Source: Desulfuromonas sp. AOP6 (GTDB lineage Bacteria; Desulfobacterota; Desulfuromonadia; Desulfuromonadales; SZUA-540). Taken from it: a stretch of DNA of 64,000 nt. Of the stretch, positions 28,590 to 48,897 are shown one piece after another. The position numbers and the translations under genes were made by a program. The DNA lies in NCBI RefSeq assembly GCF_009731355.2, contig NZ_AP022810.1, positions 744,001 through 808,000 on the forward strand, written 5' to 3'. The notes below the pieces were generated by a model, which saw only the letters and a program-made list of their open reading frames with translations, did not search any database and was not told the origin of the DNA. Every line of letters begins with the position of its first letter. The first letter of the stretch is position 1.

Positions 28590-29428
28590 GGGGGTGCGGG
28601 CTCGCTCTGCTGGCGGCGGCGTTGCTGTCCCTGCTGCCGCTGACCGCCGGTGCCGGCACAGAATTCATGCAGGCACAGGTCGACAGCGGGCAGGTCGATG
28701 TCAGCGGCTGGCTGATGAGCGAAAAGCTCGATGGCGTGCGGGCCCACTGGGATGGCCAGACTCTGCGCTCCAAAAACGGCTATCGCCTGACGCCGCCCGC
28801 CGATTTTCTGAGCGGCTGGCCGCCCTTTGCCCTGGAAGGGGAACTTTGGGGCGGTCGGGGATCTTTTACGGAGACGGCGGCCGTGGTGCAGAGAGCCCAG
28901 GATGACGCGGGCTGGCGGCAGCTGCGTTTCGCCATTTTCGATGTTCCCGATGGTGGTGGCCCCTTTATCGAGCGCCTGCAGCGGGCTCAGCAGTGGTTTG
29001 CCCATCAGCCGGCGCCCCACGCCTTTGTCATCCCCCAGGTTCCCGTGCGGGACCGTGAGCACCTGCGCCAGGAGTTGGCCCGGGTGGAAGCGGCCGGTGG
29101 CGAAGGCCTGATGGTGCGCCGCCCCGAGGCGCCTTACACCAGCGGACGCAGCGCCGAGATTCTCAAGGTGAAGAGCTGGCAGGATGCCGAAGCCGTGGTC
29201 GTCGCCCACCTGCCAGGTAAGGGCCGCCATCGCGGTCGGCTGGGGGCGCTGCTGGTCGAAATACCGGACGGTATTCGCTTCCGCCTCGGCACGGGCTTTA
29301 CGGACGCCGAACGCAACGAGCCCCCGCCGGTCGGCGCGTTGATAACCTTCAAATTTCAGGGATTCTTTCCATCAGGCATCCCGCGCTTCCCCTCCTACCT
29401 GCGCCTGCGCCAGGATGGGAATCTGTAG
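28574..29428 (+). CDS. Minimal ATP-dependent DNA ligase with signal peptide (LigE-type)
   Basis: 284 aa. N-terminal signal peptide ([20 protein letters not shown]) then adenylation motif [14 protein letters not shown] with the nucleotidyl Lys. [30 protein letters not shown] and [14 protein letters not shown] are motifs III, IIIa, IV and V. A short OB domain ends LRLRQDGNL. Size and signal peptide fit Lig E, a periplasmic ligase linked with DNA uptake or biofilm DNA. The start overlaps the xthA end, so the two DNA-repair genes are coupled. Confidence 0.88.
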
Positions 29429-29452
29429 GCGGGACTTTCTCGTGAGGTGACG

Positions 29453-29635
29453 ATGAACAAAGGACTTAAAATTGTGATCTTTGCCGGTGTCGGCACTCTG
29501 GCCGGCGCCCTTCTGGGCTATCTGGGTCAATGCGTCGGTAATACCTGAGGCGCTTTGGCCGGCCCCTGGTCAGGGGCCCTGTTCGGTGTGATTGTGGGGA
29601 CGGTGTTGGGACTGCTCCCCGAAGAGAAAAAGTAA
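29453..29635 (+). CDS. Candidate selenoprotein, small membrane protein (DUF6132-like), UGA=Sec at residue 32
   Basis: 60 residues if the in-frame TGA at 29546-29548 is read as selenocysteine: MNKGLKIVIFAGVGTLAGAL leads into LLGYLGQCVGNTU, then GALAGPWSGALFGVIVGTVL and a charged end EEKK. The two halves form glycine-rich membrane hairpins on either side of a C-x4-U motif. Cys-containing relatives I recall (DUF6132-type) have C-x4-C in the same place. RBS GAGGTGA precedes ATG. Codons and frame continue without any shift to TAA at 29633, and a SECIS-like hairpin follows the TGA. Function unknown; a membrane thiol/selenol redox or metal-binding role is possible. A strong terminator lies 35 bp downstream. 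Confidence 0.75.
29546..29578 (+). promoter_or_regulatory. UGA codon and bacterial SECIS-like element
   Basis: Eighteen nt after the TGA begins a six-base apical loop TGGTCA closed by GGCCCC (29561-29566) and GGGGCC (29573-29578). In E. coli fdhF the SECIS loop is AGGTCT, 17 nt after its UGA. Loop word GGTC, loop size and distance all agree with what SelB recognises. Confidence 0.7.
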
Positions 29636-29669
29636 GGCAGAGCAGAATTCCTTTCTGGAGTTGGCTCAA

Positions 29670-29713
29670 TCCCCCGCAGCGGTACAAGGCGACCGCAGCG
29701 GGGGATTTTTTTT
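29670..29713 (+). terminator. Terminator after the selenoprotein candidate
   Basis: TCCCCCGCAGCGGT and ACCGCAGCGGGGGA form a long stem with one A-A mismatch around an 8-nt loop, followed by eight T. It overlaps the last codon of the convergent thiE gene. Confidence 0.85.
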
Positions 29714-33377: not shown

Positions 33378-33411
33378 CGGCTGGAAAGTTCCAGAGTCCC
33401 GAATCGTGCGC

Positions 33412-33493
33412 CGCTTCCCTACGCCGGTATCACCCGGATCAGGTTCAAAGGGTCGCCTCGCCGTAGCCAGGCTCTCAGTAAAAAACTCCCCTA
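33412..33493 (-). promoter_or_regulatory. TPP riboswitch (THI element)
   Basis: On the minus strand the conserved words appear in order: GGGGAG, CTGAGA, ACCCTTTGAACCTGATC, GGGTGATACC and GGCGTAGGGAAG. This is the thiamine pyrophosphate aptamer, controlling thiFSGHE. Confidence 0.95.
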
Positions 33494-33520
33494 GGGCATT
33501 TCAAGTTGTGGTGAATCGGT

Positions 33521-47973: not shown

Positions 47974-48897
47974 TAGGATGTCGCCGGGGCGGGAAGAGAA
48001 GCTGGTCAGATGGTACTGGAAGACAACGAAGATGGTCAGAGTCTCTTTCTCGTAGTAGCGGGAAAGAGCGCCGTAAGGAGCAGCCTTGTGCACGGCGTCG
48101 ATGGCCTCCTGGTCTAGGAGCGGATAGCCGGAACTCTCTTTAAGTACGACTTCTTCCAAGGTGCCGTCCTTGTTGACCGTGACCTGCAGCAGGCAGCGTC
48201 CCTGCTCGCCCCGTTCGGCGGCGCGGGCCGGATAGTTCCAGACTAAATAGATTCTATCGCGGAAGCGGCTGAAAAAAGAATTCAGCAGGTCGTTTTCCAT
48301 GTCCAGCCAGACCGCTTCGCCTTCGACCACGTCCTCCCGGTACTTGCTCCGCCATTCCTGCAGATACTGGTTGGCGCTTTTGGCGGCGGCCTGATTGAGG
48401 GCCGCCATCAGGGCTTTTTTGTCTGGAAGTTCCGTCGCCTGTTCCGGCGCCGTTTTTTGTGGCCCGGAGGTGCCAGGCCGGGCCTCGATGCCGGTTTTGG
48501 CCGAGGGTTGGTCGGTGGGTGGTTCGGGTGCCGGGGGCGTCGGTGAAGGAGGCTGCCTCGGTGTCGGCGGCGCCGGTGGGGCGCTGGGGGCCCGGTCTTC
48601 GATAAAGTCGCCTTTGGGAGCCGTTTCCCGTTCCACTTCCTGGTCAGCGGGGCCGAGACGTTTGGCGGGGGTCTGTCGTGGCTGTTCCGACGGGGTGACG
48701 ACAGGCGCGTCGAGCTCACGCTCGCGCGCCGGCTCTCTGGGCTCCGGCGGGCGCATTTCCACAACCAGGGGCGTGTCGGCCTCGGGGGGAGGGAAGAGGG
48801 TGCGCTGCGGCACCAAAAAAAGCAGCAGCAGGTGCACCAGCAGAGACAGTATAATGAAGACCAGGATCATCGGATCCTGGTTGCGGCTGAATTGCAT
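47971..48897 (-). CDS. tonB: TonB-type energy transducer
   Basis: 308 aa from ATG 48897. N-terminal membrane anchor (DPMILVFIILSLLVHLLLLF), a long Pro/Glu-rich periplasmic spacer (residues 45-165), and a C-terminal TonB fold: GRCLLQVTVNKDGTLEEVVL and GYPLLDQEAIDAVHKAAPYG. Transmits proton-motive force to outer-membrane receptors; ExbB/ExbD are not in the window. A start 16 codons upstream (48945) is possible; neither has a good RBS. Confidence 0.8.
   Translation of the reverse strand: MQFSRNQDPMILVFIILSLLVHLLLLFLVPQRTLFPPPEADTPLVVEMRPPEPREPARERELDAPVVTPSEQPRQTPAKRLGPADQEVERETAPKGDFIEDRAPSAPPAPPTPRQPPSPTPPAPEPPTDQPSAKTGIEARPGTSGPQKTAPEQATELPDKKALMAALNQAAAKSANQYLQEWRSKYREDVVEGEAVWLDMENDLLNSFFSRFRDRIYLVWNYPARAAERGEQGRCLLQVTVNKDGTLEEVVLKESSGYPLLDQEAIDAVHKAAPYGALSRYYEKETLTIFVVFQYHLTSFSSRPGDIL

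Follow-up and report, generated by a model that had tools for sequence, protein, structure and literature searches.

A predicted selenocysteine form of the DUF6132 membrane protein family in Desulfuromonas sp. AOP6 and its relatives

Introduction

Does the TGA codon in the middle of a 60-residue reading frame of Desulfuromonas sp. AOP6 end a short peptide or encode selenocysteine (Sec) – and, if the latter, what might the complete protein do? The frame lies within a 64,000-nucleotide stretch of DNA (the window; contig NZ_AP022810.1, positions 744,001 to 808,000) of a 3.27 Mb, single-contig genome. An earlier inspection of the window (the original prediction) proposed a membrane selenoprotein related to DUF6132, with Sec in place of a cysteine. 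E. coli fdhF, in which a SECIS hairpin with a GGU loop follows the UGA, is a point of comparison for such genes.

Results

A reading frame broken by a single TGA

The frame runs from an ATG at 29453 to a TAA at 29633-29635 and is open but for the TGA at 29546-29548, beyond which it continues for 28 codons (Table 1). These coordinates and the preceding GAGGTGA agree with the original prediction of a frame with a ribosome-binding site that only the TGA interrupts. The first part comprises just 31 codons under translation table 11, so no open reading frame of at least 60 amino acids is listed from 29453, and the gene is easily overlooked owing to its mid-gene stop codon. A terminator-like hairpin stands 3' of the full-length frame; a consensus terminator scan reported none.

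Table 1. Features of the predicted Sec-form locus, numbered from the first nucleotide of the window.
Feature	Position	Strand	Basis
Shine-Dalgarno-like GAGGTGA	29444-29450	+	Sequence; Shine-Dalgarno match scored
Predicted Sec-form DUF6132 gene, 60 residues, TAA stop	29453-29635	+	Frame; PF19628 profile score with Cys at residue 32
Cys27 codon, first residue of C-x4-U	29531-29533	+	Translation; Cys27 nearly invariant in 67 aligned members
TGA predicted to be read as selenocysteine, U32	29546-29548	+	Column is TGA in 44/44 aligned Sec genes, Cys in Cys homologues
SECIS hairpin, stem GGCCCC/GGGGCC, loop UGGUCA; also codes G-P-W-S-G-A	29561-29578	+	Covariation, consensus fold, loop conservation
Terminator-like hairpin (29668-29707) and 8-T run (29706-29713)	29668-29713	+	-29.3 kcal/mol, z -4.8

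Upstream, a DNA-ligase-like gene (a Pfam identification) ends at 29428. Downstream, a run of thiamine-type genes (named by eye) occupies the minus strand; its last member, thiE, ends at 29712, convergent to the Sec gene. A TPP riboswitch (33399-33502, minus strand; Rfam, 64 bits) lies upstream of this run. A TMP-TENI match occurs once among the Sec-gene neighbours. In a relative (G002), the ORF immediately downstream of the Sec gene differs in both size and strand, which indicates no conserved link.

The protein belongs to DUF6132

With Cys written at residue 32, the protein scored 33.0 bits against PF19628 (DUF6132), for which the Pfam cut-off is 23.2. The score stayed above this cut-off when residue 32 was replaced by Ser or Ala (28.4), X (27.9) or Trp (26.4), and when Cys27 was replaced by Ser (28.4). 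Since the single substitutions tried at C27 or U32 cost 4.6 to 6.6 bits each, both positions are cysteine columns of the family. The 31-residue half alone scored 16.1 bits, under the cut-off. An alignment of 67 members, Cys homologues among them, placed U32 opposite the second Cys of the C-x4-C motif, and C27 and U32 thus occupy the two conserved cysteine positions. The Sec and Cys profiles matched each other with an hhalign E-value of 8e-17. The assignment to DUF6132 and the proposal that Sec replaces the second cysteine are supported by these results, including the recovery of homologues with Cys at residue 32.

AlphaFold2 predicted helices at residues 3-28 and 38-54, placing C27 and U32 at the turn that connects them (mean pLDDT 71.7, pTM 0.41); at these values only the hairpin of the model is trustworthy. 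With one helix on each side of C-x4-U, the model shows a single hairpin, not the two membrane hairpins originally envisaged. From the hydrophobic, glycine-rich sequence we infer a location in the inner membrane. Comparison with solved structures gave chance-level matches only (E 0.4 or worse), and Foldseek found no fold match (E 7 or worse).

The best Cys homologues lack an internal stop

A composed-probe scan of GTDB contigs recovered at least 566 relatives. Among the best 80 of these, none has an internal stop and most Cys forms read C-x-S/T-G-T-C at the turn; the Cys homologues cover both halves of the Sec-form protein. The nearest Cys forms make up a short-loop Verrucomicrobiota group (e.g., L138, 43% identity over 49 residues), with a turn that is mostly G-K/Q-C-x-S-G-T-C-P-L-T. 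In a tree that retained every third probe-found Cys row and dropped one long-branch row (L004), the Sec forms and this group separated from the other Cys forms with 100/99 support, on few columns; a further Cys locus (L182) had no placement in the alignment. The Sec state requires two changes on this tree (bootstrap range 1-3), a single change being enough in 14% of the bootstrap replicates. An apparent single clean Sec/Cys split was abandoned when adding the Verrucomicrobiota Cys forms turned it into these two changes.

Verrucomicrobiota loci L129-L143 gave the top PF19628 scores observed (as high as 131 bits), and some of them adjoin TusA, DsrE2 or YgaP-TM genes. These loci are a good place for study of the Cys form.

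The TGA is conserved across a lineage

Within the order of AOP6, PF19628 matched 32 of 136 genomes, all 32 with exactly one TGA. A profile built from the Sec forms matched 34 of the 136, again all with TGA, one match (G087) being a fragment. In a sample of the phylum, 12 of 395 genomes matched and all 14 matches contained a TGA; four of these 12 genomes belong to the order, and counting none twice (34 + 10) gives TGA in 44/44 DUF6132 matches of the searched phylum sample, the fragment included.

Matches in other phyla mostly lacked a stop: 44 of 45 in Verrucomicrobiota (43 of 240 genomes; one TGA), 55 of 56 in Bacteroidota (53 of 247 genomes; one TAA) and 41 of 43 in the phylum of genome G535 (43 of 82 genomes; one TAA, one TGA). 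Pooled, 140 of these 144 matches have no stop, two have TAA and two have TGA. One of the two TGA matches, in a Verrucomicrobiota genome (G603, locus L172), is a genuine Sec form: it has the same hairpin, and its genome carries selA. It can be read as the result of either a transfer or an earlier origin of Sec forms. The other (G1094, phylum of G535) was rejected as noise.

Subsequent counts use 44 aligned Sec genes – 43 from the phylum of AOP6, without the G087 fragment, and the one from Verrucomicrobiota – with one duplicate (L034, of L002) left out. Across these genes, from many genera and two phyla, both the in-frame continuation and the TGA column are kept in 44/44. Judged by this conservation, the TGA characterises a lineage and is not peculiar to one gene. 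Pooled pairwise dN/dS, calculated from pairs with differences at 35% or fewer of the bases in a given stretch, was 0.13 before the TGA, 0.28 across the hairpin codons and 0.20 beyond the hairpin; the last value indicates selection on the protein sequence of the second half outside the hairpin. Homologues ending at the UGA would have spoken against the original prediction; instead, the aligned homologues run on in frame.

Two genomes each encode two divergent Sec-form copies (L035 and L044 in G247; L036 and L043 in G217), one copy having CCA/TGG stem ends (PWSW) and the other PWSG. In the G087 fragment (L173), only the C-terminal half of the gene is in frame, the upstream part being broken or misassembled. 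A plasmid search and scans of viral contigs found nothing.

The host genome encodes the Sec machinery

We identified selA (620 bits), selB as the next gene (395 bits) and, about 18 kb away, tRNA-Sec (77 bits) in the AOP6 genome, as expected had the original prediction been right. A tRNA-Sec over cut-off occurs in 29 of the order's 34 Sec-form genomes; because 108 of all 136 order genomes also have one, tRNA-Sec alone is no marker of Sec-form carriers. The other five comprise two with selA (G059, G098) and three of 63-81% completeness (G056, G061, G063; 3/34) with neither tRNA-Sec nor selA. When selA was scored in Sec-form and Cys-form genomes, 11 of 12 and 4 of 27, respectively, were over cut-off, the single Sec-form miss (G001) being 78% complete with a tRNA-Sec. 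The Cys set derived from 28 of 80 Cys loci, of which 27 genomes were scored, and its selection was biased to Cys forms, so the contrast is one of co-occurrence and not a blind test.

A conserved hairpin follows the TGA

The GC stem and six-base TGGTCA loop described by the original prediction were found as the stem GGCCCC/GGGGCC, with 18 nt separating the TGA from the loop at 29567-29572. The hairpin is at a constant distance from the TGA in the 44 aligned Sec genes, and the consensus fold of these genes yields it. The loop is TGGTCA in 37/44 and contains GGU in 41/44, the other three having TGGACA or TGGATG. Standard pairs fill 93.2% of the cells of the five stem pairs, against 24-62% for slid partners. 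The covariation score of 0.266 exceeded the shuffled 0.171, with 0/500 shuffles as high; pairs changed on both sides numbered 3 against 1.4 in shuffles, 46/500 being as high. Examples are C-G to U-A at columns 18/31 (10 sequences) and C-G to A-U at columns 21/28 (3 sequences).

Codon choice within the hairpin is similarly constrained. Ser40 is TCA in 34 of 37 genes against 5.2 expected from neighbour genes (seven of the 44 were omitted as lacking Ser there or having too few neighbour codons), whereas elsewhere in these genes TCA accounts for 17 of 158 Ser codons. Gly41 is GGG in 33 of 35 (7.7 expected) and Pro38 is CCC in 33 of 37 (11.5 expected). Trp39 is present in 44/44 Sec forms and in 6/75 Bacteroidota-type Cys forms (6/77 in the tree alignment). 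We dropped the idea that the SECIS loop imposes Trp39, since 13 of 15 Verrucomicrobiota Cys forms share it. Sec-specific features are Ser40 (40/44) and its TCA codon; 14 of the 15 Verrucomicrobiota Cys forms have Arg there.

A bacterial SECIS model specifies a loop of 3-9 nt with G in its first two bases, a stem of 4-16 bp, a distance of 16-37 nt from the UGA and a minimum free energy of -7.5 or lower (main text of PMC13188914). The AOP6 gene passes it (loop GGTC, 7 bp, 19 nt, -13.4 kcal/mol). Coded strictly, with an unbroken stem and -7.5 kcal/mol or lower, the model was satisfied by 26/44 Sec genes and by 1/75 Cys forms at the same place. Of the 1925 TGAs of the window, 141 also pass, and four, the AOP6 gene among them, have a GGU-type loop with an energy of -9 or lower. 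Folding z-scores are weak (-0.5 for the AOP6 hairpin; mean -0.66 over the Sec genes), and fold energies alone do not support the hairpin. Rfam gave no SECIS match in the region. By itself, the AOP6 hairpin is weak evidence; it is the comparative evidence that lifts the observation beyond chance.

At 48544 on the plus strand, a glycine/arginine-rich frame contains another in-frame TGA that is likewise accompanied by a GGU-type hairpin (-12.7 kcal/mol). This combination is probably due to chance.

The TGA is almost certainly decoded as selenocysteine

If the TGA were a real stop, the second half would be an untranslated remnant or a chance frame. The shortness of the first part under table 11 would fit such a gene, and hairpins passing the general SECIS model follow about 7% of the TGAs in the window. 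However, the continuation and TGA column shared by all aligned Sec genes, the low dN/dS past the hairpin, the failure of the 31-residue half to reach the DUF6132 cut-off and the span of the Cys homologues across both halves make a true stop extremely improbable. Suppression or a changed code could instead insert another amino acid such as Trp, and the frame is indeed open whichever residue the TGA specifies. Against this stand the homologue column, which is Cys and not Trp; the profile score, for which Trp is the worst of four replacements (26.4 vs 33.0 bits); the coding of Trp39 in the same gene by TGG; and the presence of selA, selB and tRNA-Sec. We regard this possibility as still more remote than a true stop.

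Decoding of the TGA as selenocysteine is thus, on sequence grounds, nearly certain. The hairpin with the UGGUCA loop, immediately 3' of the UGA, would recruit SelB with Sec-tRNA for the insertion of Sec at U32. Sec insertion in a DUF6132 redox or sulfur membrane protein, taken as a whole, is probable.

Sulfur genes often adjoin Cys forms but rarely Sec forms

We scanned 133 of 159 ORFs adjacent to Cys-form genes, omitting duplicates and some others, and obtained the following counts, which have no random-locus control: Thioredoxin 21, Rhodanese 16, ArsR (HTH_5) 14, Sulf_transp 5, YgaP-TM 4 and DsrE 3. Separately branching Verrucomicrobiota loci (53 neighbours) gave YgaP-TM 4, DsrE2 2, TusA 2, ArsR 2 and Rhodanese 1. 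In contrast, the 114 ORFs neighbouring Sec genes showed no sulfur-gene enrichment among the 25 commonest of 117 families; these neighbours include DUF1451 (10), SEC-C (8), Na_Ca_ex (5), 2Fe-2S_thioredx (2) and CGGC (2), and those of the AOP6 gene are the DNA ligase and thiamine genes. A thioredoxin, rhodanese or YeeE/YedE motif lies within three ORFs of 50/80 Cys loci and 3/42 Sec loci, the Sec flanks being shorter.

Discussion

A possible persulfide relay

YeeE-like proteins are described as sulfur importers with links to TusA-type carriers and to repressors that respond to sulfane sulfur (PMC11582611); such repressors are called ArsR-type (PMC12423496). Together with the sulfur-gene neighbours of the Cys forms, this literature leads us to propose a sulfane-sulfur relay. 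The C27/U32 pair would act as a persulfide/selenylsulfide relay at the turn of the two-helix hairpin: sulfane sulfur from thiosulfate, polysulfide or persulfide would be taken up at the membrane and delivered to carriers in the cytoplasm (thioredoxin, rhodanese or TusA-type). With Sec, the exchange may be quicker, or less prone to over-oxidation. Because the Sec loci lack a sulfur neighbourhood, the role is carried from Cys to Sec forms by homology only, a step of moderate strength, and we put a sulfur-relay role for the Sec protein at slightly short of an even chance. More speculative, and on balance doubtful, is the broader idea that DUF6132 is a minimal membrane persulfide relay that in Desulfobacterota has wholly switched to selenium – a 60-residue channel or shuttle whose selenylsulfide moves sulfur across the inner membrane.

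Two other activities could be served by the same architecture. As a general thiol-redox relay, the selenylsulfide would connect thioredoxin to disulfides or peroxides of the periplasm, carrying electrons either across the membrane or along it in the manner of a miniature DsbD/CcdA, and sulfur would not be cargo. The two conserved cysteines at the helix turn, the rank of Thioredoxin as commonest Cys-form neighbour family and the 2Fe-2S_thioredx and CGGC matches beside Sec forms are in keeping with electron transfer, yet two separate clades have neighbours from the Rhodanese, Sulf_transp, DsrE, TusA and YgaP-TM families, which favours sulfane sulfur, and we consider a purely redox role unlikely. 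Small MerF/MerT-type hairpins move mercury, MerF being a small helical hairpin with a cysteine pair, and a Sec protein of this shape might likewise have a soft metal or metalloid as its cargo, be it mercury, copper, arsenic or selenium itself, with the adjoining ArsR regulators of Cys forms (14/133) acting as metal sensors. A Sec form of the mercuric transport protein PF02411 has been catalogued (PMC13188914, main text). Pfam, however, gave no MerT/MerF match, and no mercury-type family is among the 25 commonest neighbour families of the Sec forms, the Cys forms or the Verrucomicrobiota group, the efflux components OEP, ACR_tran and HlyD occurring once or twice. The AOP6 protein resembles the mercury transporters in its hairpin and cysteine pair and not in family or common neighbours, and metal transport seems quite improbable.

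The sulfane-sulfur relay has a partial parallel in YeeE/YedE proteins (TsuA, SoxT, PmpAB), which adjoin some Cys DUF6132 genes and share membrane cysteines in a glycine-rich GC-x-S-G context. That shared context prompted a search for homology to YeeE/YedE (PF04143), which we rejected: hhalign comparison with two alignments, built from 7 and 9 neighbour proteins, gave probabilities of 0.3-7%, and Pfam gave no match. YeeE/YedE proteins have four to nine helices (PMC11582611) and DUF6132 two; a YeeE/YedE Sec form, GUxSG, is among those catalogued in the main text of PMC13188914.

Relation to known families

Compared with DUF6132 Cys forms of Bacteroidota and Verrucomicrobiota, the AOP6 protein is alike in length, glycine pattern, cysteines at the turn and profile score. 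It differs in having Sec as the second Cys, in the residues that follow and in the absence of a sulfur-gene neighbourhood at Sec loci. With bacterial selenoproteins such as E. coli fdhF it shares an in-frame UGA, a GGU-loop hairpin 16-37 nt downstream and SelA, SelB and tRNA-Sec, but here these serve a small two-helix membrane protein with C-x4-U.

A 2026 review (PMC13188914) catalogues 119 prokaryotic selenoprotein families, and its Table 1 and main text do not include DUF6132 or PF19628. Passages of four other papers name no DUF6132-type Sec family (PMC9312934, PMC12013277, PMC1914089, PMC8318568); among them, PMC12013277 reports 13 known and no new selenoprotein genes for deep-Sep on Desulfuromonas soudanensis WTL. 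The titles and abstracts searched contain no report of a Sec-form DUF6132; DUF6132 itself surfaced once, in a paper whose title concerns DUF6/EamA sugar transporters, and searches for PF19628 found no mention. NCBIfam is without a relevant model – six weak unrelated matches appeared at E up to 10, none close to cut-off, and the 67 members at E up to 0.001 yielded one stray riboflavin-transporter match – and so holds no model that would place the protein in a catalogued Sec family. Within the literature and profile libraries searched, the novelty claimed by the original prediction holds.

Significance

These results add a selenoprotein family, predicted in all DUF6132 matches of the own-phylum sample and absent from the catalogue and NCBIfam. 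The placement of the SECIS inside the conserved protein motif P-W-S-G makes a clean case of dual coding. For DUF6132, a family of unknown function, the neighbours of the Cys forms provide a functional lead towards sulfur trafficking. If the relay role is true, the paired Sec and Cys forms would allow selenium's benefit in persulfide transfer to be tested in a 60-residue protein.
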